Assembly (NCBI GenBank): GCA_963921795.1
Contig: OY997649.1
Coordinates: 28,774,362-28,838,361, forward strand
Origin: Nannobrachium achirus
Taxonomy: Eukaryota > Chordata > Actinopteri > Myctophiformes > Myctophidae
Length of the DNA: 64,000 bases
Direction of reading: 5' to 3'
Shown: positions 645 to 63,300 of the stretch, piece after piece
Layout of the letters: each line of letters opens with the position of its first letter
How positions within the stretch are numbered: position 1 is the first letter of the stretch
Position numbers and translations under genes: made by a program
The notes under the pieces: generated by a model
The model's input: only the letters and a program-made list of their open reading frames with translations
The model's database searches: none
Told to the model about the DNA's origin: nothing

Positions 645-716
645 AATACCCGATCTACATGCTCACAATGCATCGCAACATGACGCTTTGTGAGTTTGTA
701 CATCGGCTATTTTCGA
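645..716. repeat. Hairpin module, diverged copy
   Basis: CCGATCTACATGCTCACAATG pairs imperfectly with TTTGTGAGTTTGTACATCGG; the right arm ends GCTATTTTCG. First of the dispersed copies in the window. Confidence 0.7.
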
Positions 717-745
717 AGCATGTTTTGCTCTCCTTTACTACAATT

Positions 746-775
746 TAGCAGACACTCTTTATCCAAAGTGACTTT
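746..775. mobile_element. Short L2-like LINE tail
   Basis: TTAGCAGACACTCTTTATCC resembles the conserved 3' end of fish L2-like LINEs (same phrase as at 19141-19180). Too short for more. Confidence 0.45.
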
Positions 776-890
776 CAGCGCTGTTCCCAAACTGTGGGTC
801 AGGACCCATTTGTGGGTTGCGGACAAATTTGTATGGGTCCCTTTGTTTTTTACCCCTACATTTAGTTTATTAATTAAACTAAATGTTTAA
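776..890. mobile_element. hAT-like MITE fragment, left end
   Basis: Begins CAGCGCTGTTCCCAAACTG followed by GTGGGTC, the usual start of one fish hAT MITE group. No matching right end; the sequence runs into a half copy of the hairpin module and then into the CA-repeat family. Confidence 0.5.
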
Positions 891-930
891 GAAGTGGTGA
901 AAATAACCGATCTACAAGCTCAAAATGCGC
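891..930. repeat. Hairpin module, left half only
   Basis: AACCGATCTACAAGCTCA without a right arm, at the joint between a hAT-like fragment and the CA-repeat family. Confidence 0.6.
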
Positions 931-1342
931 TGTATATTAGCATTTTTATGGTGTATCTACTATCTATTCTGCATCTAGCATGAGGCATATCTATTCTGCA
1001 TCTAGCATGAGGCAACATGTTTAACCAGCTCTCTGTGTGTGTGGGTGTGTGTGTGTGTGTGTGTGTGTGCAGGCGGGTGGGCGGGCTGCCAGGGGGGGGG
1101 GGGGGGGGTCGGCTGTCTGGCCCTGTTACAGATTTTGTCCAAAAATCATGCAGATCGGTACACAGTATCTCTGTAGCCATTAAACGAAACGGGTATTTCT
1201 TACATTGATGCTCCTACATATTATCATGCAAGCACCAGAAAGTTTCCATCCCTCATATACTGTGTGCACAGTGCACACCCCATAACCCACACACTGCACA
1301 TCATTTCGGAGCTCATATCTTTGAACGGGTAAGGACTAGTCT
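930..1342 (+). repeat. Dispersed family with internal GT microsatellite, copy A
   Basis: Matches the complement of 35070-35562 almost base for base outside the microsatellite: a twice-repeated TCTATTCTGCATCTAGCATG, then AACATGTTTAACCAGCTC, the GT tract, GATCGGTACACAGTATCTC, and a long tail ending TTGAACGGGTAAGGACTAGT. Here the GT tract is only about 37 bp and is followed by a G run at 1092-1108. Confidence 0.85.
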
Positions 1343-1350
1343 GTCTAAAT

Positions 1351-1743
1351 CAGTGTTTCTCAAACTTTAAAATGTCAAGGTCTCCCCTTAAATCTGACAG
1401 TGTACACATTTGTACACACAATCTAGACTCCCCTAAAGGTACCCACTGAGTCCCTGGAATCAGTGTTGCATTGCTGATTCAATGTTTGGGGGTACGCGAT
1501 CTTCATGACGTCACGTGCACGTCGCTCAACACCTAGCCTACTAGGTCTAATTGATATGCATACAGGCTTGTTTCTTTGTTAAAATACCCTGTTGTGACAA
1601 GCGAGGTGTGAACTTGGGGGGGTTTGGCATCAATGCATGTCCGTTTGCGTGGGAGGCGTGACCCCTGCTCAGAAAAGATATGGGGCGGTGGGGGCGCTCG
1701 ACCCCAATTCAACACTGCCTGGAATCCACTTTGAGAAACACTG
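1351..1743. mobile_element. hAT MITE with 8-bp TSD GTCTAAAT, hosting a nested MITE
   Basis: TIRs CAGTGTTTCTCAAAC and its complement TTTGAGAAACACTG bound the element; GTCTAAAT is repeated exactly at 1343-1350 and 1744-1751, the 8-bp duplication typical of hAT. A second hAT MITE lies inside it at 1461-1717, so its own unit is only about 130 bp. It carries no transposase. Confidence 0.9.
1461..1717. mobile_element. Nested hAT MITE with TSD CCTGGAAT
   Basis: Starts CAGTGTTG and ends CAACACTG; CCTGGAAT is repeated exactly at 1453-1460 and 1718-1725. It therefore jumped into the surrounding CAGTGTTTCTC element after that one had settled. No coding capacity. Confidence 0.9.
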
Positions 1744-2078
1744 GTCTAAATAACATACTACAGTATCTATTACATATTAACCTTTGCATGAAGCTGCATG
1801 GTTGTCAAGGCTAGGTCAAGGGCTACGGGCTGAGGTGGGGTCTGAAGAGGCGGGTATTCAGATTACGCTGGATTACGCTAGAGTTCAAGTGGTTAAACCT
1901 CTGGAATGATGGTCCTGGTGGATCTTCCTACCGAGTATAGCACCTGTTTTCAGCTGTTGACAATTATTAACTAACTAACCCATGTAGTAAACAAAGTTTA
2001 TGAGGCATGTGCTCATATCATGTACAGTTTATGTCTCTCTGAGCTCATTATGTCATTCCATGACTTATGTTTGTTGAT

Positions 2079-2570
2079 AAGCTCTCTGTCTTTCGAGCAA
2101 TCTTCGTTCCCACTCTGACCTATGGTCATGAAGTGTGGGTCATGACCGAAAGTATAAGGTCTCGGGTACAAGCGGCCGAAATGAGTTTTCTCAGAAGGGT
2201 GGCTGGTATCTCCCTTAGAGATAGGGTGAGAAGTTCAATCACCCGAGAGAGACTTAGAGTAGAACCGCTGCTCCTTCACTTGGAAAGGAGTCAGCTTAGG
2301 TGGTTCGGGCATCTAGTACGGATGCCCCCCGAGCGCCTTCCTAGGAAGGTCCTCGATGCACGTCCCACTGGGAGGAGACCCCGTGGCAGACCTAAGACCA
2401 GATGGAAGGATTATATCTTCAAACTGGCCTGGGAACGCCTCGGTATACTCCCAGAGGGAGTGGAGGAAGCTGCTCAGGATAAGGAAATCTGGAAGTCTCA
2501 GTTGGAACTGTTACCCCAGCGACCGATTCCGGATAAGCGGTTGAAGATGGATGGATGGATGGATGGATGG
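2079..2570 (+). mobile_element. Rex3/RTE-type LINE, 5'-truncated, TSD ATGTTTGTTGAT
   Basis: Last part of the reverse-transcriptase ORF: an open frame of about 160 codons with TYGHEVWVMTE, AAEMSFLRRVAG, QLRWFGHLVRMPP and RGRPKTRW, the C-terminus of fish Rex3-like (RTE clade) elements, followed by the typical GATG tail (about 2546-2570). An exact 12-bp target duplication flanks it (2067-2078 and 2571-2582). Only about 490 bp were inserted, so it was dead on arrival, but the frame is unbroken, which points to a young insertion. The family name rests on the GATG tail and remembered protein motifs. Confidence 0.85.
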
Positions 2571-2648
2571 ATGTTTGTTGATGTTTTCTTTTTTTTACAA
2601 TATGCAATCAGTGTCTTGTTTTCCTGATATACCCATGAAACAATCAAA

Positions 2649-3037
2649 TAGAGATGTGCCGATCGGCCGATAATGTCTCTATCGGCTTTGATCGGTATTG
2701 GCTTTGCCTCTATCGGCTTTGCCGATCTACAAGCTAGATCAGCTATTTTCACAATATTTATCTGTGGGACTGAATGTAACCTCAGCTTCAACTCCTACAA
2801 GTTGAATTGGATACTAAAGGACCTCAGCCTGCAATCACCTAATGTTTATACTTAATATACAATGTCAATGTTTTGTAAGAAGAATCATTAAATATATAAA
2901 TGCTGCTACAGCAACACAATAAATAGAAGAATTTATGGATTTGACGCTGTGATCGGGAATATCGATATCAGCAGATAGTGATTCCAGTTGATCGGTGATC
3001 GGTATCGGCCCCAAAAATCACAATCAAAGCATCTCTA
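2649..3037. mobile_element. hAT MITE (TAGAGATGTGCCGATCGG family)
   Basis: Ends TAGAGATGTGCCGATCGG and GCATCTCTA with GATCGGTATCGGCC near the right end. Flanks CAATCAAA (2641-2648) and CGATCAAA (3038-3045) match at 7 of 8 bases. A shortened hairpin module lies at 2721-2751. No coding capacity. Confidence 0.75.
2721..2751. repeat. Hairpin module, tip lost
   Basis: GCCGATCTACAAGCTAGATC followed by AGCTATTTTCAC: the outer parts of both arms remain, the inner part is deleted. Inside hAT MITE 2649-3037. Confidence 0.65.
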
Positions 3038-3104
3038 CGATCAAACAAACAAACAGCTAAATCGGTCTACTGCTACTGCTACTGTTGTCGAATGCGCACG
3101 TGAG

Positions 3105-3106
<2 letters not shown>

Positions 3107-3159
<53 letters not shown>

Positions 3160-3186
3160 TGGGTGTGGGTGTGTGTGGGTGTGTGC
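3107..3186. repeat. GT microsatellite
   Basis: About 80 bp of GT with a few GGGT interruptions at the right end. Confidence 0.95.
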
Positions 3187-3732
3187 TGGTGCAGGGGTTA
3201 ACCCAGCCGGACAGAGTGAGAGCAGACAGAGTTAACAGTAATCTATCACACGACAAAGAGCTATTCATAAGAGGGTTAAACTGATTAGGGAGACAGGAGG
3301 ATGGAAGAGAGAAATTTAGGGGTGAGGGAGGGGGTCGTGTCAGTGGCAGGGGGCCGGCCCCGGACTTATGATTGTATTCAAATCAAAACACATCCCACAA
3401 TGCACCTCTGCCCCTGGCTCTCTTATGCACATACGGATGGACAAAAGAAAAACAGAGCTGACGCCTCACCGTGCAGCATAATCTTGTCTTCCTCCATAGG
3501 TGCTGCTGCTATTGTATCGTAATATGATGCTGAATATACACCGCACTTTGCTGTTATGTCAGAGAGTAGCGTGGGGGAACCCCTCTCTGCAACGATCACA
3601 ATCCGTTTCCTCGCAACACAATGAAGTCTTATCGCAAAGCTTTATCGGAGCAAATCCAAACTCCAAACAACCAGCTAAAGCAGCTCAGAGTATACACGCT
3701 AAGCAATGTCAAATACACTGTCACCTCTCATA

Positions 3733-3914
3733 TCGTCGTTGTTGGGTGAAAATAGCCGATCTACAAGCACACAACGCCTCGCGGTGCGAGGCGTTGTGTG
3801 CTTGTAGATCTGCTATTTTCACTAGTTTTGTGCGACACTTTTGTAGGGCTTTAATTGACAAAAAAACATATATTTGAAACTTGGAGATACAAGGTTTCTG
3901 CCCGACAGTGGCGA
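3733..3914. mobile_element. Tc1/mariner-like MITE (TCGTCGTTGTCGGG family), copy 1
   Basis: Left end TCGTCGTTGTTGGGTGAAAA and right end GCCCGACAGTGGCGA, with TA on each side (3731-3732, 3915-3916). Internal GAAACTTGGAGATAC is shared with the copy at 14857-15122. Its centre is a complete hairpin module (3746-3822). No transposase. Confidence 0.7.
3746..3822. repeat. Hairpin module, complete (3-nt loop)
   Basis: Arms of 37 nt, GTGAAAATAGCCGATCTAC outward and CACACAACGCCTCGC inward, almost perfectly complementary around GGT. Confidence 0.9.
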
Positions 3915-4395
3915 TAATACTGAGAGTGCTTGACTGTGTTTGCTGTGTGCATTCTTAAAGTTCAACCCAAGGTGAGAAGATTCATGTGAGTAAAATAAAA
4001 CATGATGATGTAACCCGGCCTCGCTGAGTTTACATACAACTAGAGCGCGTTCATTTCAAAGGGAAATACAATCTTAAAAAAGCCTTGTCCTTTCTTATAT
4101 ATTACAGCCCCCAGGCGATGGCTATATAAAAGGAAAAACTGTTATTGAGGAACAGAAACCACGAGACAAGGCTAGCTGTCTGGCTGTGGCACCGCTCTGA
4201 ATCGCTGAGTGATTCCAAGCCTTGCCACCCACTGGGAGAGAACCTGACTCTTGCTAATATGAAGAGAGGGCACACACAGTGGGTTCCATTTTCTACCCCC
4301 GGTTGGCCAACGGACCTGTCGGAACAGGGGCCTCGTTTTCAGCTAGACTGGAGCTGTCATGTGATATCTACTGGCGGAAAAAACATTGTGGAGGA

Positions 4396-4941
4396 CAGTG
4401 TTGTTTTTGACAGCAAATTTTGATTTGGTTTTAGTCATAGTCTTTTGAATAAAATCTCATTTAGTTTTAGTCATTATTTAGTCTCCTGAAAAGTTTTAGT
4501 TTTAGTCATATTTTAGTCGACTAAATATCATGAGATTTTAGTTGACTAAATCCACAGTTGATTTAGTCAACTGAAATCTATTTTGGCAGGCCTTGATGGC
4601 ATCGTAATGACTGATTTTACACTTGGTTTGCACGCTTAAAATAGCAGATCTACAAGCTCACAACGCGTCGCGCTGCGACGCGTTGTGAGCTTGTAGATCT
4701 GCTATTTTAAGCGTGCAGCACCTGAGAGCAACCAAACATAAAATTACTTTCTTCTCCACTAGTCTCTTCCTAACGTTTTAGTCTAGTTTTTATTTTGTTG
4801 ACGAAATTGTCAATATATTTAGTCCTAGTTTTAGTCATCATTGCTTAGTTTTTATTTCGTTTTTATTTCGTTTTCGTCAGTGAAAAAAACGCAGTCGACA
4901 AACATTTTTTGTCATAGTTTTCGTCGACGAAATCAACACTG
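4396..4941. mobile_element. hAT MITE (CAGTGTTG...CAACACTG) flanked by 74-bp direct repeats
   Basis: Starts CAGTGTTGTTTTTGAC and ends TCGACGAAATCAACACTG; the body is built of TTTAGTTTTAGTC phrases. Instead of an 8-bp duplication, the flanks are two near-identical 74-75-bp copies of one sequence (4321-4395 and 4941-5014). A perfect palindromic hairpin module sits inside (4629-4717). Confidence 0.8.
4629..4717. repeat. Hairpin module, 89-bp near-perfect palindrome
   Basis: Centred at 4673 with essentially no loop. The arms read outward to inward GCACGCTTAAAATAGCAG then ATCTACAAGCTCACAACGC. The most perfect copy in the window. Confidence 0.92.
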
Positions 4942-5833
4942 GAACAGGGGTCTCGTTTTCAGCTAGACTGGAGCTGTCATGTGATATCTACTGGCGGAAA
5001 AACATTGTGGAGGATAGACACGGGAATGGAGCAGCAGCAGCTATTGTTTTTGCCTCCCTTGTGCTCCCATAGAGAGTCTAATAGTGGTAGTGGGTCTGGA
5101 GGAGTGCAGTAGTGGACGGTATGCTAATGCACGGTGGGGGACTGGGAGGGTGAATGCTTCTGCTTGGAGGGTTACGGCTCACTTGGGTCACAAAGGTCGC
5201 TCTCTCATTGGTTGTAGACGGTGGATTATCGATTCAAACACGCCGGCTAACCTCTCTGTAACCTTTCATTGAATTCCGCGTGGAAGGAAACTGCGGCGTT
5301 TTGTTTTAACATTTTGGTCAGTCGCTTGTCAACTTCAGTGGTCCTTCGTTGTCTTTCGCGATATCTGCGTGAATGAAGGAAGAAATGTTTTAGCGCGTTC
5401 AGTGAGAGTATCTGTTTTGGGATTCCAGTGTACGTACAGAGTTGCATGTTGATTTGCACGTTCAAATTAAAACGAAAGCATTTGTCATTCCATGTCAAGG
5501 CCTTTGTCTGTCAACACACTCAAATGAAAGCAGGGTCCTCTCTTTCTCCCCCTCTCCTTTATCTCGCTCTCTCTCCTTCTGCCTCTTGCTGCTTGTTGGA
5601 TTTGTCACAAGCCATTCGCCCTTTATTTGAATCAAAACATGTCTTTTTTTCCCCCCTCCGCTTGTAATTTTTCAAATTCGTGGCAATACATACCCCACCC
5701 CCTGTGTGATCGACCCTCCCCTACCCATGTTTGGCCCTGTTGGGTTTCTACGGCAACTGAATTCAAATCTAAACCCTCAGCCCAGGTCTTTTTTTTTCTT
5801 GGTCTCATCTCTATGGTAACCTGAGAGAATGAA

Positions 5834-5891
5834 GAGTGTGTGTGTGTGTGAGTGTGAGTGTGTGTGTGTGTGTGTGTGTGGGGGGGGGGGC
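5834..5891. repeat. GT microsatellite with G run
   Basis: Interrupted GT repeats followed by a run of ten G. Confidence 0.9.
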
Positions 5892-6409
5892 TGTTCTCTT
5901 TGTAGTGATGGACAGGAGGAGGGAGGGAGAGGGAAAGGGTTAAGAGTTTGATGATGAAACTTGAATTCCCCCGTGGAGTAGCCAAGGGGGCGGGGCCACT
6001 CGTGGGATTTTGAAAATCAACATGTTTGGACTGGAGTCCCAACCACGTGCTTCTGGAGTCTGGACCCACACGGCTCAGCGACGCACTGGTCACTCGTGTT
6101 TGATTCCTGGAATCATTCCAACAGGTGCTGTCGGCCGTAATGAGCTTAAAGTATCCTACAGTATTACCACATGATGATTAGCTGTGTGTATGAGAGAGAG
6201 TATGTGTGGGAGTGGGTGTGTAGTGCTGCACGTGAAAGTGTTTTTCTCCTGGTTAACCCCGTGGTGAACCCCCGACTCTACGAATGCCTTCTAAATCCGT
6301 GGTTCTCACACTTTAAAAAAAACTTTAAAAAAATGTGCAACAATAGCAGATGTAAAAGCTTACAGCGCCGCGGCACGAAGTCTAAAATCTAAAATGACTG
6401 AAAGCATCT

Positions 6410-6460
6410 GAAAATAGACGATCCTCAAGCACACAACGCCTCGCATTGTCAGCTATTTCC
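6410..6460. repeat. Hairpin module, damaged copy
   Basis: GAAAATAGACGATCCTCAAG then CACACAACGCCTCGC, with only a short remnant of the right arm (CAGCTATTTCC). A further weak half (AATAGCAGATGTAAAAGC) lies at about 6343-6361. Confidence 0.55.
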
Positions 6461-7898
6461 TCTATTTTTTTAAATGTTAACACCTTTTTAAATGTTTTGA
6501 AAATGTTTGAAATGTTCTTCTATGGTTCTTCTATGATGTCATGCACCAAAATAGGGACTCCAGATTGAAAGTCGTTAAATATAATCCCAGTTTGGAGTCC
6601 TCTAAAAACTAAGGGTAAAGGTCAGTTTTTTTTACGCAGGGGTCAACTTTGACACAGTCAGTTAAATGACCACTCAGGGGTGTAGGAAATGGGCTGAGCG
6701 CTCCAGGAGAGGCCCTCATAAGCCTCTATACAGAGATAAGAGCAAATGCCTGGAGTTTTCCCCACACCTGTTATCATCAACGTAGCACATTTCCTCTATC
6801 GGTGCCCCGCCCAGTTGTTTAAATGATGCTGACCTGGAATCTCTCTTTTTTTATGGAAGCTCAAACTGAACACCGCCCATCAAAGGCTGGGTCAGTCGTT
6901 GAGGCCAGTCAATCATTAAAGCCATCTATTAAGCACAGCAACAGGCCCAGCCAGGAATGCAGGGTTAATTGTTAGCCATTGTTGTGCTTCTCTAACCACA
7001 GTGTGGTGTTTTCAGCCGGTCTCATACATACCTCTCAAGGCTCAGGTCCAGTCTCTCTTGTCTGAAGGGGAAGTAAAGCCTGAATATACTTTGTTGTACG
7101 GCGGCGTATAAAACACCCAGACAGCCTTTTGTGTTTCCTGTGATATTGTTGCAGAATAAGTTCAAAGGTTGAAGTGATCAGTATAATTATTTTCCCCCCG
7201 GTGACCTCAGCTAGGTGCTGAACTTCAGGACTGTGACGCAATTATATTTCACACTTCATGGTTTTACAAATATGTCTCAAAACATTTTCCACACTTTGAG
7301 TCCAGATAGATAAAGTTTAGTTTTCTCACTACCATTATTGAGCTCCCTCAAGCTCTATCTATGCTATGTGTTTGCAGCAAGCAGTAAGAACTAGAAATTG
7401 ATTAGAAACAGGATTAATTTCATGTATGTTTTTTTCTCTGTGAGGTTGGTACATTACCATGAATTAATAGCTGATGAATTGAGAAACATTCACAAATTAT
7501 TTACAAATCTGTACAAAAGCGTAACGACACACGCGTATAAAAACTATGCTATTGGTGGCACACCGGAAATCTCCCTGCGGTTACTTTGTTTTCTCTCAAA
7601 ATGAGTCTATTATGAGCACCGTTCAGGGCGTGAGTTTGCACCCTTTTTGCATCCTCTCTATGATTTCAAAGCTGGAGATTGAAGTAGGAAAAAGAGTTCA
7701 TTGAGGAAACTGAATAAAAGAAAGGGGGGGCGGGGGGGTTTGGTAGGGAAGGGTAACTCCAGTGCCCTGAAAACCAGGCTGCAGTCACCAGGCAACCAAC
7801 GTATCAAGTTTCAAAGCCTGACAAGGAGTTGTAAGAAGTATAGAGAGAGAGGGTGAGGAGGAGAGGGTGCGGTGTAAAGACTAATTCATACAGTACTT

Positions 7899-8165
7899 CA
7901 GTGTTTCTCAACCCAGATGATAAACTTAATGTGCAACACTGTTTTCTCACTCAACAGTAAACAAACCAACATAAAGTTTAAGTGTATAGAGAGTATCTGC
8001 ACATTTAAGGACTTTTTTAACAGCTCTAAAATGACAAATTAAACATTGGCCTAATTGTCAAATATTAGAGGCAGACATTGTGAAAATAGACGATCTACAT
8101 GCTCACAACCCAGTTAAAATATGATTATTTTGGGGGTCGCGGCTTGAAAAGGTTGAGAATCACTG
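7899..8165. mobile_element. hAT MITE with TSD CAGTACTT
   Basis: TIRs CAGTGTTTCTCAACC and GGTTGAGAATCACTG; exact 8-bp duplication at 7891-7898 and 8166-8173. Contains half a hairpin module. No coding capacity. A related partial copy lies at 30715-30896. Confidence 0.9.
8080..8109. repeat. Hairpin module, left half only
   Basis: TGAAAATAGACGATCTACAT then GCTCACAAC, inside hAT MITE 7899-8165. The related element at 30.7 kb has the whole hairpin at the same place. Confidence 0.7.
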
Positions 8166-8281
8166 CAGTACTTCACCGGCGGTGTCGCTCAACAACAGTA
8201 ACGCATTTTCAAGTGAAAAATCTGTGATATCCGGCAAGCAACACTCTCGTACAACAAAGTATGACTTTGTTTTTAGTTCGC

Positions 8282-8314
<33 letters not shown>

Positions 8315-8345
8315 TGTGTGCACATAAGTGTGCACGCGTGCGTGT
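8282..8345. repeat. GT microsatellite
   Basis: GT repeats with TTGT, CACGCGTGCG and other breaks. Confidence 0.9.
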
Positions 8346-9054
8346 GTTTGTCCTTGTGCATGTGTTTAAGCAGCATACTGCGTATCTGCCAATGTGCCAA
8401 GGTGTTTTTGCCAACTGTCCTCTGATAAACAAAAGCAGATGGTTCGTTTTGTGACGCATCTCTCTTTTCCCACAGGAATGCTTCCTTAGGTGAAGACTTC
8501 TCAGAAATATGTATAAATAGCTGTCATACACAGTTTGTTTTTGGGGGAATGTTAGTCAGTACAAAGTTTTCCTCAAGCATTCCTATGGTGGTCCGTTACG
8601 TCTGCGCCTGTAAACAACCGAACGCCTGAAAATGATAGGACGAGCTCTTCAGCTGTCATCTTACACATCATTACCGCTGCCACCAGTGATTGATATGTTT
8701 GTACTTTTCCAACCCAAGGTCACTGGCTTCTCATCCTTTTAATTGCGCACTTTAATTGCCGCGTTCCACATGCGATAGCGTTCTGCAAAAGCCCAAAACC
8801 AGTGCTTAACTCTTCCCCACGCGGAATTAATGCGACATATTGTGGTTGAATATTTGCTACTGACATTGCCGCAGCATACGCCCTGGAACACAGGGCTGTG
8901 TGCTTCATGGCAATAAAGGCCAGCTGTGACGTTTGACTTTGACTGTGGCCTTTTGTGTCACACTGTGGATGCCTGTGTCCTAAGCATGGTCAGCCTTCTG
9001 CCTGCTTGTGCTGACTCTGCCTGTCTGTCTGTCTGGCTGGCTGTGTGTGTGTGC

Positions 9055-9240
9055 AGCAGTGGTGGAAAAAGTACTCACATGTTTACTGTAAGTAAACGTA
9101 TCAATACTGCAATATAGAAATACTCTGTTACAACTACAAGTAGAAGTCCGGAATTCAAAATGTACTCGGGTAAAAGTACGAAAGTGTTGGCATCAAAATG
9201 TATTTATAAAGTGCCAAAAGTAAAAGTACAAAATGTTTGA
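9055..9240. mobile_element. hAT MITE left end (CAGTGGTGGAAAAAGTACTC)
   Basis: The start is the common fish hAT MITE end; the body is full of AAAAGTAC phrases. No right TIR; it ends in a half hairpin module. Confidence 0.6.
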
Positions 9241-9371
9241 AAATAGCAGATCAACAAGCTCAACAACTCTGTACTTAGTCTGCTCTTTTTCCCCTCTACA
9301 CCAAACCTGTTTGCCGAAAATAGCCGATCTACAGCGCAAGGCGTTGTGAGCTTGTAGATCTGCTATTTTTG
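9239..9371. repeat. Hairpin module, a half copy and a nearly complete copy close together
   Basis: GAAAATAGCAGATCAACAAG at 9239 has no right arm. At 9315-9371 CGAAAATAGCCGATCTACAG is paired with CTTGTAGATCTGCTATTTTT, with part of the left arm lost. Confidence 0.75.
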
Positions 9372-9495
9372 GTTGCAGTTCTCAGAATATGGACACTAGG
9401 GTTCAAGTGGTTAATATAAAAAGGATTGGAAGATTTGGAGGACCCCCTGTAGTTACCCCCTAGGGGTCCCGGAGCCCCTGTTGAAGACCCCTGCT
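9270..9495 (-). mobile_element. hAT-like MITE piece (CAGGGGTCTTCAAC family)
   Basis: On the minus strand it begins CAGGGGTCTTCAACAGGGG and passes CCTAGGGGGTAACTACAGGG and GAACCCTAGTGTCCATATTC. Same family and order as 45018-45340. Contains a hairpin module. Confidence 0.7.
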
Positions 9496-9529
9496 TTACA
9501 ACACTGTGTGTGTGTGCTGCTGACCCTGA

Positions 9530-9531
<2 letters not shown>

Positions 9532-9590
<59 letters not shown>
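9532..9590. repeat. CT microsatellite serving as polypyrimidine tract
   Basis: About 29 CT units end 8 bases before the acceptor AG of the igsf9a exon that starts at 9600, so the microsatellite forms the polypyrimidine tract of that intron. Confidence 0.9.
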
Positions 9591-9591
<1 letters not shown>

Positions 9592-9599
9592 CAATGCAG

Positions 9600-26291
<16,692 letters not shown>

Positions 26292-26989: not shown

Positions 26990-27058
26990 ATAGCGGAAAT
27001 AGTGAATCTACAACCTCTCAACGCGTCACCAAGCGATGCGTTGAGAGCTTGTAGATGG
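26990..27058. repeat. Hairpin module, diverged
   Basis: GTGAATCTACAACCTCTCAA with TTGAGAGCTTGTAGATGG; in the probable igsf9a 3' UTR. Confidence 0.65.
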
Positions 27059-27272
27059 TTAATACATTAATGATACAATAGGCATAAAATAACTGAATTT
27101 GAGGTTAAATGTGAACACTAGGGGGTGGCCGTTGCCATCCCCTGATGACAAAAGTATGCCCAAGGCTTACTTTCAAGCTATATGATGCCATAATGGCTAC
27201 GGTGATTCTTTCAAATCTGTCATTGTCCACTGTTGTTTTCGAAGAAGTAGGTCAAACATAGAGGTCTTGCTA

Positions 27273-27370
27273 TATTGTTGCTGTCGGGTGAAAACCTTTT
27301 ATCTCCCGGCGATAGAATTTAAAGCCCTTGTTCATCATTCGAGCGTCACACAAAAGTAGTGAAAACAATT
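27273..27370. mobile_element. TCGTCGTTGTCGGG family MITE, partial copy 3
   Basis: ATTGTTGCTGTCGGGTGAAA matches the left end of 14857-15122, and ACACAAAAGTAGTGAAAAC near 27350 matches the arm before the hairpin in the copy at 38.9 kb; the sequence then stops before any hairpin. Confidence 0.5.
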
Positions 27371-30290: not shown

Positions 30291-30708
30291 CTACGTTGGC
30301 ACCTCGCTATTCCTACATACTTTAACTTGATTCAAAATTCAAAAATGCCACCTTACTGTGGACATGCATGGTTGCGATTTTTACTTTGAAAAATTTTTTA
30401 GTTTTTGAAATATTTAACTTTACTGCCCAATGCATTGTCAATGACAATGGCCTTTTAAAGGAGAGAAAAACCAAGCCATCAGTGTTAATTGCTCAAATGC
30501 AGAGGGAAAAAAAACCTAAAGAATGATTGACCAGGGGCCCTCATGGGGGTTAATACGTCCCTGTATATACATAGGCATTTTAAAAGAAAAGTTTTGGAAC
30601 CACTGGTCAACATAATTATGTTCAAATCCTGGTCGTCCTGGCTGTGTTTCAATGCTGGTGTGTTTGTGTTTAACTTTACCAACTCAATGCTAACATACTA
30701 AAGAACTA

Positions 30709-30774
30709 CTAGCCCTTCTACATGCTCACAACGCCTCGCGTTGCATTGTGAGCATGTAGATCTGCTATTTTCAC
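30709..30774. repeat. Hairpin module, complete
   Basis: TTCTACATGCTCACAACGCC with GTGAGCATGTAGATCTGC and a TATTTTCAC end. Shares the CATGC variant with the half copy at 8080, and both lie in the same MITE family. Confidence 0.8.
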
Positions 30775-30896: not shown

Positions 30897-31440
30897 CCTT
30901 TAAGGAGTAGTTCAGTATCAATTACACCCCATGAATCCTTGAATTCATAGAGATTCCTGAGCCCAATAATTTGATGGCCAGCAGTCTCTGCGGGAATCTC
31001 CTATTGACCAGCAACTTGAGCAGAATATTACAGTGTAAGGTCCCTCTGCAGAATGACATTCTGATGATATCCGTTATTGTCCCCATAGTTAAATCTTTAA
31101 GAGAATATTAATCATTAATTGCTAATAAAGTAACATTGCTTTAAAGTAACATTCTAACTTTTTAAAACCGTTTTTTATTGGAGACTTCACAGTTTTAAAG
31201 GACAAAACAACAAGACATTATTACAAATATAGTCAAACATAATTTTAAGCATGAATGAAGGAATACAAATTATCTTAATGAGAGGGGACAACAAATCAAA
31301 CACAGTGCTACACTAGAACATTTCTAAAGGTGCTGCACTTATAAAAAACTTAAGACCTATAATTAATTGACTGGATACAGTCAATATACAGGGCTCTGTA
31401 GGACCCTCCCTTTTTCACTTTAGACCAAATATCTTTGCAG

Positions 31441-31506
31441 ACAATTGCTGATATGCAAGCTCATAATGTTGCAATGCATTGTGAGCTTGTAGATCAGCTA
31501 TTTTTG
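31441..31506. repeat. Hairpin module, complete
   Basis: AATTGCTGATATGCAAGCTC with GAGCTTGTAGATCAGCTATT; in the probable hk2 3' UTR. Confidence 0.75.
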
Positions 31507-31953
31507 CCGAATGTTAGACCTTGAACAGTGATTAAGCACATTATGAGATTCGACTAGATAACTGGAATAAATCTACAAATGACCAATTGAGATTTGGGAA
31601 CATTACCACAGACTTTCTGTTCCCATATAAAGTGCAACAAGACAAGAGGTGACAACAAATACAAAAGATGGAAAATAATGTAGTTCTCTCGCCCAAGGCC
31701 GCTTTCTTGCCATGTGCTCTGCTTAAATATTACTCAAGTGCAACAATCCATAATAGTCAGGAAACGTGAAATAATTTATAAAAAAATAAAGGGGAAAAAA
31801 TTGCACCCATGCCACAGACATATTGTACCAAACAACTGTTGTCTTGATGCATAAATGCACACATTATTACACAAGGGCATGTACACAGATTTACACAGAC
31901 ACAAACTTGACACAGAAGTCTCAGACACAAACTAATACAGAAGTCAGATGAAT

Positions 31954-32289: not shown

Positions 32290-52365
<20,076 letters not shown>

Positions 52366-53648: not shown

Positions 53649-54392
53649 ATGAAGGTTCCTGGAAAAGAATTGATGCGTGACATTTTAATGCGTGTTACAG
53701 GTGAGTCGGCGCTCCCTGTATACAGTGACATTGTCAAATATAAACGAGCGGCTAGGAGCGGCCTGTACGTTGTAGCTGAAGACTACAGGTTAACTGCGAA
53801 AAAAAGAGAAATGGTCAACGCAAAGGAGCGACAGAGGGTGAGTAATGTATGTATGCCTACATATTTTGGGCCACGTAGGCCTAACTAACCACTGGAGTTG
53901 ACTGAATGTTGGTTGAGCAACTTCCTAATGCACTATTCAGTGGTTTAGAGGCCCTCCCTTTTCACCAAAATAATCTTATTCAGCCGTGAGGCGCTAATTG
54001 GCTTCGAAAAAATGTTGTCTTTGCTCTGGCTCTGCTGCTGCTAGGCCTAGAGTGGTGAGTAGACTTCACTCAACTAAATAGGTTACTGCTGAGGAAAATG
54101 TGTGTTAATTGTCGAGCCTGTAGTAGTGACAGTCTATGGCCTAGTGATGCCACAGCTTTGAGTGGTAACAGCTGGGTGGGCAGTGCATGGGCACCAAAAC
54201 ATTCTGGGCACTAGGGAAATGTGGGCACCAACACAAAGTGGGCATCATACCCCCCCCCCCCCCCCCCCTTCAAAACATATTCTGACACATTTTAGGCTTT
54301 GTCAAGGGTTTATGGTTTGGGTTAGGCAGAGTTTTCCTTAAATTGGGATTAAGGTTAGGCTAGCCCCTCTCGAGACCCTAAATGTAATACCT

Positions 54393-54474
<82 letters not shown>

Positions 54475-54824
54475 GTAAATACAGTCCAGAAAGGGGCTAA
54501 GGTTAGGCATATTTCACTTGGTGCCCAGTCTTCCCAGGTCTGGTGCCCACTCTGTATTGGTGCCCACATTCCCAGAGTCAGTGCCCATCATTTTGGTTGC
54601 GTGAATGTGGGGGATTTGATTGTACATTTTTGGAGTGGTGAAAGCACTCCCAATAGACAGGTATATCCGTGGGTATGTCCGTGGGTGGCTGGGTGGGTGG
54701 GTGGCTGGCTGGCCGTGTCCGTAGCCTGGCAATACCTTGAGTGGCCACACACAACACACTAGTTAAAGGAGGGGCGCTGTTTTGTGCAGGCCAGGCACAC
54801 TCAACACACACACACACACATACA

Positions 54825-54860
<36 letters not shown>

Positions 54861-57800
54861 CGTACGCACGCACGCTGCTCAGATTCACCACTCCACTTCG
54901 AACCGAGGTTTGAATTTTTAAATTATGAGCTATGACATTGTCAAATCTTTTATATGTATAAAATGTTGGCCATTCTTGCCTCTACAGATCAGGAACCTGA
55001 ACACCATGTTCACCCGTCTGAAGCGCATGGTGCCTCTGATGCGTCCAGATCGTAAACCCAGCAAAGTGGACACACTTAAGGCTGCCACTGAATATATTCG
55101 TCTACTCCTTGCTGTCTTGCAGGATACTGATGGCGTAAGCATTACATTTTGCAGAATGTTTACAATAGTTCTGTTGAAAGGGAATTCATCCATGACTAAT
55201 CTCCTTTTTGGTACTTTGATATAAAAATAACAATAATTTTTTCATCAGGAGTATGGCAACACAACTGACTTTCTGAAGAACGCAGTCAACTATGGTAACA
55301 CAGATGGCATGTGCGGTGACCTGTGGAAGGTAGATGACGTAAGTTGTGTTTTGGGTTTTTATGGTACAGTATGTACGGCTAATCTCTCAAACTGCTGGAC
55401 CGATCAGTGCCAAATGTTGCAGGCTACAGCAATATTCCTTATTTTATTTTGATATATATGTTTCATACTTTGAAATATTTCATTTAAAATGTATAATGGA
55501 AGTCAATAGTGGTCTCATCTGGCTGCAACCTTGCCCAGGTAATAGGTAATAAACTGACATCACAGTTTGGCAACATGATGTCCGAGATACACACTGTTCC
55601 TGAGATTGACACAACTTGTTTTTTGTACTTGCACAGACATAATAATGGCAAGCAATGATCACAGCGGCTCTGTATTCCAATGGAACGCTAAAGGTGCTGA
55701 TACTGTACTGTGTCTACAGGCCAAACTAATACTTTAACTTATCTTATCCAGCTTGAATAAAACATACATTGTCAGCATTACAACTAATGACGGATGCAAA
55801 CATATTTGCAGTAGGAGCGAGATCATTTAGCGACCTACAACTGGGTTGCAACCCAGTCGGTAGTTTTCACCGACTGGGTTGCTAAATCTACCGACTGGGT
55901 TGCTAAATCTACCGACTGGGTCGCTAAATCCACCGACTGGGTTGCTAAATCTACCGACTGGGTCGCTAAATCCACCGACTGGGTTGCTAAATCCACCGAC
56001 TGGGTCGCTAAATCTACCGACTGGGTTGCTAAATCTACCGACTGGGTCGCTAAATCCACCGACTGGGTTGCTAAATCCACCGACTGGGTCGCTAAATCTA
56101 CCGACTGGGTTGCTAAATCTACCGACTGGGTTGCTAAATCTACCGACTGGGTCGCTAAATCTACCGACTGGGTTGCTAAATCACCGACTGGGTTGCTGAA
56201 TCTACCGACTGGTCGCCAATACCGACCAGGTCGCTAAATCTACCGACTGGGTTGCTAAATCACCGACTGGGTTGCTAAATCTACCGACTGGGTTGCTAAA
56301 TCACCGACTGGGTTGCTAAATCTACCGACTGGGTTGCTAAATCACCGACTGGGTTGCTAAATCTACCGACTGGGTAGCTAAATCTACCGACTGGGTCGCT
56401 AAATCACCGACTGGGTCGCTAAATCTACCGACTGGGTCGCTAAATCACCGACTGGGTTGCTAAATCTACCGACTTGGTCACTAAATCTACCGACTGGGTT
56501 GCTAAATCACCGACTGGGTTGCTAAATCACCGACTGGGTTGCTAAATCTACCGACTGGGTTGCTAAATCTACCGACTGGGTTGCTAAATCCCTAAAAACG
56601 GTTAGGGTTAGGGTTAGGGTTTGGGTTAGGGTTAGGGCTAGGGTTTGGGTTAGGGTTAGGGTTAGGGTTAGGGTTTGGGTTAGGGTTAGCAGCCCGGTCG
56701 GTGGATAAGCGACCCTGTCGGTAGATTTAGTGACCCAGTCGGTAGATTTAGCGACCCAGTCGGTAGATTTAGTGACCCAGTCGGTAAATTTAGCAACCCA
56801 GTCGGTAGATTTAGCGACCCAGTCGGTAGATTTAGCAACCCAGTCGGTAGATTTAGCAACCCAGTCGGTAGATTTAGCGACCCAGTCGGTACATTTAGCG
56901 ACCCAGTCGGTAAATTTAGCGACCCAGTCGGTAGATTTAGCAACCCAGTCGGTAGATTTAGCGACCCAGTCGGTAGATTTAGCAACCCAGTCTGTGATTT
57001 AGCAACCCAGTCGGTAGATTTAGCAACCCAGTCGGTGAAAACTACCGACTGGGTTGCAACCCAGTTGTAGGTCGCTAAATGATCTCGCCCTCTCTCCATA
57101 TTTGTCCCAAGGAAGGCTAAATAAGAACATTCAAACTAGGCAAGGCAATGTTATTGTATAGCCCATTTCAACAAGCAATTCGATGTACTTTACACAAAAC
57201 ATCAAGCAAAGGAAACAAATAATACAATTATAAAATTATATTAGGATCCATAAAACTAAATACATACCAATGTATAGATAAAGTTACAGTGCATAGGAGA
57301 AAATAAAAACGAAATGCTGCTTCCCCATGTTTTAACATTACCACAGTTTAAGGAACAGAAAGCAGACCTTTCACAGATGACCTGAGCGTTCTTGACGGTT
57401 TATGAATACAGATCAGAAATGTAGATAGATACAGTAGTCAAGTCTACTGAAGATGAATGCATGGACGTTGAACGTTTTTCTAGATCCTGCTGAGACATAA
57501 TTCCTTGCTTAAACCTGTATATTTTAGGTGATAGTAGGCTGAGTCCAAGGTTTTTGACTTGGCTAGTGGTTCTTAACATTACCACAGTTTAAGTACGTTG
57601 TCCAATTACAATTGGTTACCTAAATCCAAGGTGGCTTTGACTTAGAATGTAGTATCTTGACCCTAAACTATTATTATTATTATTCATGAATGTGTTCTCT
57701 TCACAGTTTTTGGATGGTGTCCCAGGGGTGGACATGGTTGACAATTTCACCATGACAATGCCTACTATGGGCATTGCGAAAGAGGAGGCAGAAGTGAGTG

Positions 57801-57883
57801 CATTGGAGCTGCAACAGTGTATGATGCCCACTTACCAGTTTATCATTCAAGTAACACCTGAGCAGAACATTCAACTTTGTTAG
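53649..57883 (+). CDS. figla: figla, factor in the germline alpha (bHLH), complete, 4 exons
   Basis: Oocyte basic helix-loop-helix transcription factor; in vertebrates it pairs with E12/TCF3 on E-boxes of zona pellucida and other oocyte genes, and in fish it is an early ovary gene. Exons: 53649-53837, 54988-55134, 55249-55338, 57707-57883, all introns phase 0, total 200 residues. Exon 1 ends in the basic region (NAKERQR); exon 2 supplies helix 1 ([16 protein letters not shown]), the loop with RKPSKVD and helix 2 ([17 protein letters not shown]). The KPSKVD-LK-ATEYI run is the FIGLA signature compared with other class A/B bHLH proteins. The first ATG in frame is taken as the start. Exons 3 and 4 are short and poorly conserved, as usual for this family. 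Intron 3 (2.37 kb) houses the fold-back minisatellite element. Confidence 0.92.
54250..54268. repeat. Poly-C run
   Basis: About 18 C in figla intron 1. Confidence 0.9.
54397..54471. repeat. AT microsatellite
   Basis: About 37 AT units in figla intron 1. Confidence 0.95.
54804..54875. repeat. CA / CGCA microsatellite
   Basis: CA units pass into about fifteen CGCA units. Confidence 0.9.
55817..57088. mobile_element. Fold-back element with minisatellite arms and telomere-like core
   Basis: The two ends are inverted copies: GCGAGATCATTTAGCGACC at 55817 and its complement ending at 57088. Each end carries the 18-bp palindrome ACTGGGTTGCAACCCAGT and a short CGGTAGTTTTCACCG spacer. The left arm (to about 56590) is a tandem array of 20-21-bp units, CCGACTGGGTTGCTAAATC plus one or two bases; the right arm (56691-57055) is the same array in reverse orientation. 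Between them, 56600-56690, lies TTAGGG-like sequence with TTTGGG variants. The arms are unequal (about 770 and 400 bp). No target duplication is visible. It sits in figla intron 3. It resembles fold-back transposons in form, but family and mobility are unproven. Confidence 0.75.
56600..56690. repeat. Interstitial telomere-like TTAGGG tract
   Basis: About 15 units of GGGTTA with GGGTTT and GGGCTA variants form the centre of the fold-back element. Vertebrate telomere repeat is TTAGGG; here it is a short degenerate internal tract. Confidence 0.85.
57120..57300. repeat. Common fish dispersed repeat piece
   Basis: GGCAAGGCAATGTTATTGTA, then TAGCCCATTTCAACAAGCAA and GTACTTTACA, the usual order of a widespread fish repeat whose class I do not know. 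In figla intron 3, directly after the fold-back element. Confidence 0.6.
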
Positions 57884-59520
57884 TGGAGTACCGAGGTAAT
57901 TATAACTATCATTTATCGCCTCGCAAGTACAAACCCTTCAGTTAAGGAAGGGAAGCCACCAAGTTTCCTATGTGAAAAAAAAAGAAAAATGCAGGCCTCA
58001 AATATCTCAATTAACAGGAAAGAACAAGCTACTTATTGGCAATCAGCACAGGGTGTTTTTTGAGGGTTTTCAGTGAAAAGTTATGGTGGGACCCCACAGA
58101 CAGTGTTTCCATTATGTTTATCCAATGAGTACATGGTTTGTAATTTTGTTACCTCAGATGCCGTAATGCATACAGTAGCATTTGATCACAAACAGCTGTT
58201 TACTAATTTAGCAGTAACACTGTAGTCTTTGTAATTTACAGTGGCCTTCTCTCATTTTGTTCACATTTTGTTGTTTTAGACCCAATTTAAAAGTATTAGC
58301 AAACTCTGGTGAGGTCGACTCTAGACCTAAACAGGGCTCTAGATGTCTGCATGAAATTCTGCATGAATCTCTTGCTGACTTGGTTCATTGTAGAATTTGG
58401 GCAGCTCCTAGTCACTCCGGACTTCACTGAAACGTGCCTGACTGTTAAGTCTGCCGGTTTCCAAGTGTGTGGAACACCATGCACTTGGATTCGGCTATGC
58501 ATGATTAAAGTAAACGGCTCTGAATATGTATATTCATGATATTTATGTTTATTTTTAAACAAGCGAGTGTTTCTAAAAACGTGTTTTTGCTTTGCCATTA
58601 TGTTTTATGTGTAGGTTCATGTAACAAATAAGAAAAATCTGTCTATTTTATGTTATTGTTGTATGCCAACATATTTAAGCCAAACAGTCCTTGTGAAGAC
58701 AGATGAAGAATGTACAATTTTATTTCGATACTTAATTTTTTTTAATACTTAACTGAAAAGGGAATCACCTGCACTGAACAGGAGTGAACCCGAATGGTTA
58801 TTTAGGTTAGCTTGGATACTTATAATGGAACATTTGACAGGTTAGACTTCACACCAGAACATTGCATTATAGATTGATTTGCTTTATGTGTACTGCTTAA
58901 ACTTTTTTTCTTGGGAACCTTCAAACACCTATTACCTCTTTCAGTCTCGTCAGATAAAGCAAGTACATTGCATGCCTTATGTCAATGCCAATATATAGTT
59001 TCCATTGATTTGTAGGGGCGTGCTACTTTGAGGAAAGCAAGTGTTTCAAAAAGATTCAGTTTTATTTTGGCTTTATATTTTTAAATATTCTGTTTATTTA
59101 TGAATGTTTTTATTTTAATTTTACAAAGTGTATTAGCAGCCCCTCAAATTTACAATGCAGCCCTAATAATTCTTTTGCAGAATTTCTGTTTAAAACGATT
59201 TTGTGTCAGCTGCCTGAGAAATGCTGTATTTTTTATTTGTATTTGTTTTATTTATTTTATTTATGAGAAAACATGGACATGAAGCAGGGCAGCCACTTGG
59301 ACAACTAATATCAGTCAAACAAATGTATAAGTCTCAGCCTCTTGGGCTTCATGTCAGTCAATTACTTTGTCTTTCACCACTGTCCAATGTAAAAAATAAT
59401 AATAAAACGTATACGACTGTATGTGGACAAACGTCATTATGTTTTGGATCTTCTGAACAATTATTTTGAGGAAGGTTGTTTTGACTGAAACGACTTCATT
59501 AAAAATTGTCTGCAAGTGTA
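57884..59520 (+). other. figla: figla 3' UTR and flank
   Basis: AT-rich, no coding signal. The first clear AATAAA after the stop is at 59401-59406, with an ATTAAA at about 59499, so the transcript may be long; nearer weak signals cannot be excluded. Short open frames here have no family resemblance. Confidence 0.35.
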
Positions 59521-59989
59521 CCAGGAGTGTTGCAGTGGAATCTTTTTTTTTACCATCTCACTAGCAAAATGTGTCTGCAGTCTCTGCACATACATTTTGT
59601 GTACTTTTCATGTTTGTGATCATTTTATAGTTGTAGTGTTCATAAAACATCTAAATTTACGGATATAGCTACCATAGTACCATTTGATACAGTGACAAAC
59701 AAATTACCAAAAGATCTCAGAGTTGGGACCAAATTATCATTTTATGAAATTCCTCTTTGTCTGCACATGTCCCTATGAAACAGCAGATGGCGCCACCGTA
59801 ACACAATTCACCCAATGGCCAATGTGAGGTCTATGTATTATAGCCTACCCAGCTTAATAAATAAATAAAATCTGTAAGCCTTCGCTTGCAAACATAGGGT
59901 AACGAGGCTAAATTATATAAAGCAACAACAAAAATCTCATACCCAGCAGCATTTAGGAAGGATATGTCTGTTGGAAGTGTGGGATTGGG

Positions 59990-60350
59990 AAATTGATGGG
60001 GTTAGAGCCGAGCCGGGGGGCGTTTTAAGTAGCGCAGGTGGCGGTGGTCCGGAGAGGCAAATTATCAGGGTCTAAATGACGGCAGGCGTGGCAGTGGGCT
60101 GGTCCAGACTCCAGACGCGTCTCTCAGTGATGATGAAAAACATCACCAGAGATATAGACCTGGTTGGTATCTGATCTGAGGCCCTCAATATTGTCTGGGC
60201 AAAAGCTTCCCGAAGTCGAACGTAAATATTTTCTAAAGCTATTTGGTGTGATCACCACCAGCCGACCCTGTGTGTCTCGGTGTGGGAAGAGGACAGTGGG
60301 TGTGTGTGACGCGCACCCACAAAAGGACAGGACAACGAGAATGCGCTGAG
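59990..60350 (+). other. Possible non-coding first exon of a downstream gene
   Basis: A GC-richer block with several CpGs in AT-rich surroundings (GGGGGGCGTTTTAAGTAGCG near 60014) ends in GAG/GTAAGATC, a strong donor at 60351-60352. No long reading frame uses it, so it would be 5' UTR. In human, ADD2 lies just downstream of FIGLA in the same orientation and begins with non-coding exons, so add2 is a candidate. This rests on synteny memory and base composition only. Confidence 0.25.
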
Positions 60351-60352
60351 GT

Positions 60353-63300
60353 AAGATCATAATCTATCATAATTGTTCTTACATTAAAAATGTAGGGCCG
60401 GGCGATCAAATCAATAACCAGCTATTTGGTCATATAGGCTAGCCTACGTGCACGTCTGCACGAGTCTAACAACTAACATATTCGACCTTATTATAGCCAT
60501 AATAGCCTACAGTCATTTGTTATTTAGCCTAATTTAGATGAAGACTGCACCGATCTTCTGCCTCGATTGCTCATGGCCTGCATGTTATTGGACTACCTGG
60601 ACATGCATGTTATGTTATGTTATGTCTTGAATTGCCGCGGAAGGCCCATAATAACCATGCCAAATATTGCTGTTTATGTAGGCCTGCCGATGAGCTGAGC
60701 AGCGTATGATGTGCTTTCTCTATGGCTCTAACGAATACGTTGAATTTAGTGCCTTGGTTAGCCTGCAGCGGCGACGTTGCAGGCCTATTTTTTTTTAAGC
60801 ATCTTCGATGTAGCAATTTGATGTCACGACTTGGGGCCTATAGCTATGCATGGAGGCATAGACCTAGTAGCGTAGGCTAACTTTAACCTTAGAGTCTAGA
60901 CGTAGACCTATTTGTTATTTATGCTGTAGTCGGTTGAAACGTCAGGCATCTCGCATGCAGGCTCGACAGCTTGCTCCAGGGTTGGGGGTGGCCATTAGCA
61001 CATCATCCGCTGGGTGCTGATGTTGTTGCTATGACACCATGCCAACCTCTGGCCAGCTGATGGAGCAGCTCTGGAAAGGAGAGCAGAGGCACAGCACAGC
61101 CTGTGAAAACGAATCTATGGAGATATTGTGAATAACATTGTACACCTTGACATGAAAAAAATCTGTTCACTTTTCAAATGTTCCTATTTTTATTGCATTA
61201 ATTCACCTTTGAACTTGAAAAAAGAATAGAGCTGATGGGCTGATATAGGCTACTTAAAGGCAAGGCAATTGAAGCAGCTTCAATGAATTTGAGAGGCTTG
61301 AATTTGAATTTGATAGGCTATCTACAACAAGCTCACAACACGATTTGATCATGTGGTCCATGTGGGCTTGAAGATCTGTTATTCTAACTTGCGACTTTTT
61401 GGAAAAGGTTTCAATTCCTATACTGATATATGACATACGTTTCTCAGTTTGATTAATTGTTGCACTGATCCTCTCAGAATAGGCCTACCTGCCACCATCT
61501 CTCCTCTTTGGAGATCTATATCTACTTTGAACATCCATAATAAACAATTAAGTAGAAAGGGAGCTCTGAAAGCCTAGGGTCAGGCCTAACATCCTGTCAA
61601 AAACCTTGGGATGTTTGGCCATCCCTCTAGAGAGAGCATCACAAGAGCATCATCCAGCTAATGCATTGGAAATTCAGGGTAATACAATTGATGGTGTGTC
61701 ATGTGAAATTATGTTAGCTGTATCAAAACATGCCTCACTGCATTTGCATATCAAGCTTCCACAGGCCTATATGAATAACATTTTTGCCTCACCATGGCAT
61801 CTTTGTAGGGTGGAGTCGACTACTTGATCCTTTGGTTGTGCTCATCTCACACTAACTCTGGGCCTGAAGAGTTATACAGTACATGCTTGATCTAGTGTTC
61901 CAGAGTACAGTATGCACAAGCGGGACAACCCTGATCTCTAGTTACAGGATAACCAGTAATAATCAATCTTTATTTCAGACTCAGGTCCATATAACATAGA
62001 AATTACATAACATAAAAACGGTAACAATATAAAAACAAAATCATTAAAAAAAAAGTAAGACTCCCTTATCGGGAGTAAAGCGACCATCAGGTCGCATAAT
62101 GCTGTCTGCCAAAAGTAACCTCATGGTGGCGCTATGGGGCATGTCAGAAATCAGGGGTGGAGGTTTTGGTTCGCCAGCCTAGGAGAGTGTGCAAAGTTTT
62201 GGCATGGATATGGGCAACGGTGCCGGAGATAAAAGTGTGCAAAAAGCAACCTCATGGTGGCGCTAGAAGAGGCCCATGTGCAGGTGTGAACATTTTAAGT
62301 GCATGTATGGCTATATTATGTTGAGGGAATGTGCATGGCTAATTGCATAGAAAAGGCTGGAACTGGGAACGTTAATATGAAAAGCATGCAAAAGCTGTTG
62401 TTCAGTCCCCTTGATTGACATTTTCTGTTAATTTACGTTACAGTTACAGAAATAGACTTCTATACATGATATTAAGTCATGATACATACACACACACACA
62501 CACACATCATCACTCTATAGAGCTGTATACCAAGCTGCAAGTCAAATTTACCATTACCGACAATGAGGTCTTGAACTCTGTCTTTCATTTGTGCAAATGC
62601 ACAACCATAGCAGTTATGCAGTAACATGCTTCTATTTAAACGTTTTATCTATAGTCTGTAAAATAATTCAAAATGAGTCTATTTATCTAGGAGGTATTAT
62701 TCATACAGCCAAGTCAACATTTACACATTCCTATCGTAAAATGACTAATATGAAATAACTGGATTAAGGAAGTGCTATATTGACTAGTTTGTGTATTTAG
62801 GGTTAGGTTACAGGTGCGAACATCAATTTGCAGTTCACCTAACCAAATCCTATGTGAGGAAATCGATTAATACTGCACTATCCCAGGACTTCCAAAGGGA
62901 ACTGGTACAAAAACTTCAAATTATAAAGTCTTTAATAATTAATTCTAGTAATTAACAATTATTTATTTGAGCAACTGTGTCATCCGATTCAAAAGTTAGC
63001 CTGTTCAAGGTGGTAACACCATTATTCCGCCTCATTGTTCTAATCTACATAGATTATTAGAAGGCATAGACATAATGAGGTATTGTTCTTTTGCTCTGCT
63101 GTTAAGCCAGCTGTGGAGGAAGTCAGAGCTGAATCGATCTGTGTAAATGACAGTCAGCATGGCAGGAAGGGTGTTACATCTAAGCCAAAGGTATGCTCAC
63201 CTTTCTGCCTCGAACCAGAGCCTTGTATTAGAGAGTTACACCAACCCTGGGGTAGAAAACGGCATTTATTTTGAGAAAACAGGCCATACATGAGTCAGTC

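Follow-up and report, generated by a model that had tools for sequence, protein, structure and literature searches.

The Hairpin in the Window

The stretch analysed here, which we call the window, comprises 64,000 nucleotides of the myctophid fish Nannobrachium achirus (contig OY997649.1 of assembly GCA_963921795.1, positions 28,774,362 to 28,838,361 of the forward strand) and contains many copies of one short palindromic hairpin, several of which lie within miniature inverted-repeat transposable elements (MITEs) or hAT-like elements. A preliminary description of the sequence had counted about 20 whole or half copies over 61 kb, and this is confirmed: a profile built from 11 copies detects 23 non-overlapping loci of at least 9.2 bits, 11 of them the seeds themselves, above every shuffle (7.7 bits for the best of 10 dinucleotide shuffles; 8.0 bits for the reversed window). 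Four further listed copies, at 2735, 33278, 33380 and 11088, score 3.2–7.6 bits and fall inside the null range. The shared part of the module covers about 71 bases and reads AAAATAGC-N-GATCTACAAGCTCACAACG through to the mirror image. When folded as DNA, each of 10 hairpin copies beats all 200 of its own shuffles, and in the copy at 4630–4718 the arms pair over 42 bases.

The module is abundant in the genome. The 19-base arm core GATCTACAAGCTCACAACG occurs in 69,781 exact copies (34,951 + 34,830) in the 1.66 Gb assembly that holds the window, and the reversed core, searched as a control in the same assembly, in none. In twenty 10-kb regions (L012–L031), picked without regard to hairpins and all located at 5.0 Mb of contigs C1–C20, hence not a random sample, we found 79 loci of at least 10 bits, about one per 2.5 kb; 46 of them are nearly full-length and 19 of the 20 regions hold at least one. 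Extrapolation from these twenty regions alone gives about 655,000 hairpin loci genome-wide, plus or minus about 100,000 from the between-region spread. At C1:90030762-90030927, four arm copies are spaced 45 bp apart and the arm seems to have turned into a short tandem array.

Hosts with Unlike Ends and Target Duplications

As had been claimed, the module occurs in hosts whose ends differ and whose target site duplications (TSDs) are of more than one kind. The difference between hosts is real: several are hAT-like with unlike ends and one is a TA-flanked MITE. Three hairpin-bearing elements in the window combine matching ends with an exact 8/8 TSD, namely the hAT-like MITE at 7899–8165 (TSD CAGTACTT, half hairpin 8080–8109), the hAT at 39486–39833 (TAGGGCTGTCACGA ends, TSD GCTATGAC, collapsed hairpin 39713–39740) and the hAT at 38861–39294 (CAGGGACGTGCTGG ends, TSD TGCATGTG). 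The first two had been named as hAT hosts, correctly. Within the third lies what had been listed as a Tc1-like host at 38940, which turns out to be a fragment of the TA-flanked MITE carrying the hairpin 38998–39051. Outside the window, hairpin hosts with 8/8 TSDs are found at L015:63-494, L027:197-746, L027:898-1340 and L027:9436-9822, together with a 938-bp element at L027:2576-3513 (TSD ATAGAGGG), and a further element at L030:9609-9991 has a 7/8 TSD.

The hAT features of an 8-bp TSD with short terminal inverted repeats are present in all of the 8/8 hosts, with a 7/8 TSD in L030:9609 and in the element at 10594, and they are absent or uncertain in those at 2649, 4396 and 24642. The remaining hAT hosts of the preliminary description fare unevenly. 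The element at 10594–11363 (hairpin 10871–10950), whose TSD is 7/8 and whose ends are alike at 10/14 positions, is likely a hAT-like host. The MITE at 4396–4941, with ends CAGTGTTG/CAACACTG, holds a full hairpin at 4635–4712 (plus strand, 85.1 bits) and shows no 8-bp TSD; direct repeats of about 78 bp (4321–4398 and 4941–5017), 96% alike, bracket it. At 24642–24995 (listed as 24643; hairpin 24735–24808) the TTAGGGATGGAACG ends are good and TA is the only flanking repeat, on both sides. The putative element starting at 2649 is uncertain as a host, having weak ends, a 7/8 TSD and a hairpin remnant at 2719–2754 (plus strand) that the profile scores at only 7.6 bits (2735–2751).

The TA-flanked host stands as described: at 14857–15122 (ends TCATCGTTGTCGGG/TCGTCGTTGTCGGG, hairpin 14944–15018), TA lies on both sides and the 14-bp ends differ at one position. 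The TA target duplication of Tc1/mariner-like elements is found here, and most, not all, further copies of the end are preceded by TA. To the same family belong the full hairpin at 3746–3822 (plus strand, 84.4 bits), in the host listed at 3733, and the piece at 38940; a half hairpin at 6409–6449 (plus strand, 28.5 bits) has a flank like that of this MITE. The hosts at 9270 and 45018 likewise form one family, in which the hairpins (9313–9371, minus strand, 49.1 bits; 45165–45242, plus strand, 75.4 bits) lie in an apparent nested MITE with TTAACCACTTGAACC ends inside a hAT with CAGGGGTCTTCAAC ends. Independent acquisitions therefore number fewer than the copies.

Beyond these annotated elements, we compared the flanks of 118 distinct copies, which fall into 31 flank types with at least two members. 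Among the 79 loci of the 200-kb sample, 58 have a flank in common with another hairpin locus, some via local duplication, and 21 do not. Three of these 21 flank singletons were compared with the whole genome and none is a solo hairpin. The region L027:2640-3020 has 40 scored genome matches including itself at 98–100%, of which 39 cover the full 381 bases and the remaining one bases 3–381. L024:6820-7180 has 41 matches including itself at 83–100%, most of which end at query base 341 and span the hairpin region. The third, L018, belongs to a gene array that has 28 full-length matches on C7 and more on C8 and C14; the hairpin is intronic there and is present in 7/7 compared introns (its own included). 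The intron flanks resemble by eye the hAT remnant beside window position 896, where a half hairpin (896–932, minus strand, 25.0 bits) adjoins a hAT-like end GGGTCAGGACCC; the L018 hairpin appears to lie in an old hAT remnant. The copies tested did not fall mostly outside transposons. The array gene, perhaps of zona-pellucida type, matches no Pfam family in the exon beside the hairpin; the 28 C7 matches to the gene segment with the intronic hairpin, of 98–100%, lie within C7:2.83-5.13 Mb.

Position within Families and Nesting

Ten loci of the TAGGGCTGTCACGA hAT were fetched, one of which (L032) is the window copy itself. In eight of the nine others, the hairpin or what is left of an arm is present at one homologous place; the ninth, L036, is without a hairpin and has a rearranged junction with no clear arm. 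A comparison with empty host copies had been suggested, and no clean pre-insertion site emerged among the candidates aligned from three families (L036; L027 twice and L016; L034, L026 and L033). These hairpin-less copies prove to be deleted or rearranged, most of them with part of an arm left, and L033 misses a larger stretch. Flank pairs without an intervening hairpin number 41 versus 384 with one. Because the hairpin occupies one homologous place in the families sampled, many of its copies have been carried along by host amplification.

Nesting is deeper than first seen, with hairpin-bearing MITEs inside hATs. The TA-flanked MITE is nested in the hAT at L027:197-746 and present as a piece in that at 38861–39294, and in the CAGGGGTCTTCAAC hAT the hairpin lies within an apparent nested MITE with TTAACCACTTGAACCC ends, a segment that also occurs in other contexts beside hairpins. 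Overall, the hairpin seems to belong to another MITE nested in the element in three, perhaps four, hAT families. For comparison, a hAT at 46551–46970 (TSD ATGTAGTG, 8/8) shares the CAGGGGTCTTCAAC ends and is without the hairpin. A tail of 30 bp beside the hairpins at 9313, 24735 and 31437–31508 (plus strand, 55.2 bits) gave two pairs that score 17.0 and 15.0, whereas the maximum among 4650 shuffled scores is 13.5. We considered this tail as a larger module, dropped the idea, and read it instead as the remains of the nested MITE with TTAACCACTTGAACCC ends, a link that for 24735 and 31437 consists of flank likeness only. The left flanks of 24735 and of 9238, each paired with that of 38998, also top the shuffles, unexplained, in a control that is lenient for AT-rich flanks. 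At 30707–30774 (plus strand, 61.0 bits) the right flank of the hairpin is that of the 7899 hAT family. A fold-back element has two oppositely oriented hairpins, one per arm, at L026:4180-4252 and 4497-4569, and similar pairs occur in L022 and L031.

Ends, Arms, and Crossovers

In 68 nearly full copies, a few of which are mutual duplicates, conservation drops outside AAAATAGC...GCTATTTT. Among the 69,781 exact cores, 35,934 are preceded by AAAATAGCN and 1,808 by GTGAAAATAGCN, so that the GTG end is a minority version; the counts used these two strings, the ends named earlier (GAAAATAGC) not being counted as such. Cores with GTGAAAATAGC likewise number 1,808, and the outer ends differ between hosts. 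Target duplications at the hairpin ends had been proposed as a check: direct repeats there measure 3–5 bases in 11 copies and those of mispaired flanks 2–9, with no excess, and a general target duplication was rejected. Taken alone, the hairpin has the terminal inverted repeats of a MITE and neither a TSD of constant length nor constant ends. Both ends are immediately flanked by TA in three contexts (the intron copies, the TAGGGCTGTCACGA hAT and the TA-flanked MITE), which allows a TA-targeting origin without demonstrating one.

The two arms vary in step. Two-sided changes occur at 10 of 36 pairs in 12 copies, a number reached by 4/500 shuffles, and the covariation score of the same copies is reached by 0/500; some of these changes are common to one host family and thus represent fewer independent events. 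In 48 copies, arm identity within a copy is 0.891 versus 0.845 when arms are re-paired (0/2000). The palindrome also extends into host-specific flank, by a mean of 4.11 bases in 44 copies compared with 1.62 for re-paired flanks (at most 2.66 in 200 re-pairings). This is explained if one arm is copied from the other by fold-back or gene conversion, and a descent of the families from longer palindromes would account for it as well.

Two loci look, from their sequence, like crossovers at hairpins, both of them local duplications in which an assembly error is possible. At L029, a 2.78-kb tandem duplication (1254–4023 and 4305–7072, 98.2% identical) has a hairpin at its end (4023, 7072). There, hairpin 3952 combines the body and one flank of hairpin 7001 with the other flank of hairpin 783, from a different family. 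L005 matches L007 over 1501–2019 and L004 from 1994 on, both limits falling inside the right arm of hairpin 1952. Hybrid flank pairs were also seen among the 118 copies.

Origin and Spread of the Hairpin

We lean towards the view that an old palindromic module was caught in the founders of several transposons, partly by way of nested MITEs, and multiplied as a passenger. The hairpin would most likely be what is left of a short palindromic DNA transposon, which landed in founders of several non-autonomous families directly or within a smaller nested MITE and was then multiplied by family amplification, its arms kept alike by mutual copying through fold-back templating or gene conversion. No special preference would be needed: at one hairpin per 2.5 kb, a random founder of 400 bp would have a chance of about 15% of containing one, and each host amplification would thus raise the odds for the founder that follows. 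Unlike hosts, one homologous place per sampled family, nested composites, in-step arms and hybrid junctions are all observed. Several results weigh on the other side. The 11 copies compared do not show a hairpin that inserted by itself with a target duplication of its own, hence we infer the former mobility, and since no aligned host copy has a clean pre-insertion site, founder capture is not directly seen. Both flanks are unmatched within the sample for 27 of the 118 distinct copies, some of which might be solo hairpins. Finally, the hairpin is present in 8 of 15 hAT-like elements picked by hand, compared with 15% by chance placement. These 15 were chosen from 33 scan hits after palindrome-, satellite- and tandem-array-like ones were dropped, and the raw counts are 8/33 elements and 8/100 hairpins within elements that make up 4.5% of the 255,700 bases scanned, with the window block after 55,700 omitted. 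The excess is partly circular, as a few families supply several elements, yet it fits a preferred or helpful module.

The same excess bears on a different explanation, in which the hairpin is a helper module, a class II counterpart of the conserved domains of short interspersed elements (SINEs), whose carriers amplified since it aided them, for example through protein binding, escape from silencing or stalling of gap repair. Its presence in several unlike families, the pairing kept through two-sided changes, and the hairpin region carried by families with 98–100% matches would all agree with such a role. Against these stand the hairpin at L027:2798-2863, imperfect in a region that has matches of 98–99% at 39 other places, the internal hairpin deletions among copies of three families and the hairpin-less hAT at 46551–46970 with the same CAGGGGTCTTCAAC ends; we regard a helper as possible, if on the unlikely side. 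A selfish central domain of class II elements, which after capture by a non-autonomous DNA transposon raised the amplification of its carriers or their recombination with one another, and so took over many unrelated families of this vertebrate genome and reached about 650,000 loci, we consider doubtful.

The preliminary description had suggested exchange between MITEs during repair. In such an exchange, hairpins of different families would recombine or act as template-switch points and so move hairpin-bearing pieces between elements. The hybrid hairpin at the end of the L029 duplication, the switch from L007 to L004 inside the right arm at L005 and the hybrid flank pairs lend this idea some substance. 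However, the two crossover-like loci are local, nested insertion accounts for the hAT composites without repair exchange, and a crossover between two hairpins cannot supply one to a hairpin-less host, which makes exchange a rather improbable source of the pattern.

The other suggestion had been a tiny self-mobile hairpin transposon with a preference for MITEs. TA outside both ends in three contexts would suit such an element, but the 11 copies show no target duplication beyond that of mispaired flanks, the outer ends vary by host (GTGAAAATAGC on 1,808 of 69,781 cores) and 0/3 tested singletons proved to be solo insertions. With no TSD excess, no clean empty site among those aligned and one homologous place per sampled family, a present preference for MITEs is unsupported, and the idea is very unlikely to be right. 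That all hosts are one family with a simply homologous hairpin is hardly credible, because even after the TA-flanked copies and the 9270 and 45018 pair (perhaps with part of 24643) are each merged, ends and target duplications differ and 31 flank types with at least two members surround the hairpin.

Relation to Known Elements

The nearest published case that we found is the V domain of SINEs spread inside the MITE MER6 of mammals, where a short module from otherwise different elements was multiplied by a MITE burst (PMC6887750). There, one domain occurs in one mammalian MITE family; here, a palindrome occurs in several DNA transposon families of a single genome. Nested MITEs, in which one MITE inserts into another, are similar in arrangement and differ in that one small module recurs here across unlike hosts. 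Short inverted-repeat elements known from teleosts, Angel among them, resemble the hairpin in general description, being palindromic and of high copy number. Highly conserved SINE domains (CORE, V, Deu) are central modules common to families with different ends, as is the hairpin; SINEs are RNA-copied retroelements, whereas the hairpin is palindromic and sits, in the hosts observed, in class II elements. Palindromic mariner MITEs of the MADE1 type are about 80 bp long and share with the hairpin the length, the near-perfect palindrome and, in some contexts here, TA on both sides; in contrast, the hairpin lacks constant ends and a general TA duplication and lies inside other transposons.

The window has no match to a structured-RNA family of Rfam at its gathering score. 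The 19-base arm (with one Y) has no exact match in viral contigs; three matches in genomes of bacteria and archaea we attribute to chance, and six 15-base arm pieces appear in no open-paper text searched. We found no description of this module in open papers, by keyword or by arm sequence; Repbase or Dfam may already have a name for it. If the hairpin is a passenger only, it clearly illustrates how a module carried by other transposons can come to rank among the most frequent interspersed sequences of its genome, and families with and without it offer a comparison; if it helps its carriers, it would be the class II match of the SINE conserved domains. Either way, palindromes this dense are likely substrates for recombination.

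Other Features of the Window

A full hairpin at 643–715 (plus strand, 68.5 bits) has no host assigned, and another full copy lies at 26993–27060 (plus strand, 58.4 bits). Degraded copies are found at 14026–14080 (minus strand, 19.8 bits), 51081–51136 (plus strand, 21.7 bits) and 61314–61386 (plus strand, 21.9 bits). Among protein matches are Hexokinase at 41061–41453 on the minus strand and fibronectin type III at 18625–19023 on the plus strand. The long frame at 21173–24538 looks like an IgSF9-type gene. Short repeats running in either orientation form a large block at 55867–57038, which has inverted arms of up to 315 nt and translates as repeated TDWVAKS.

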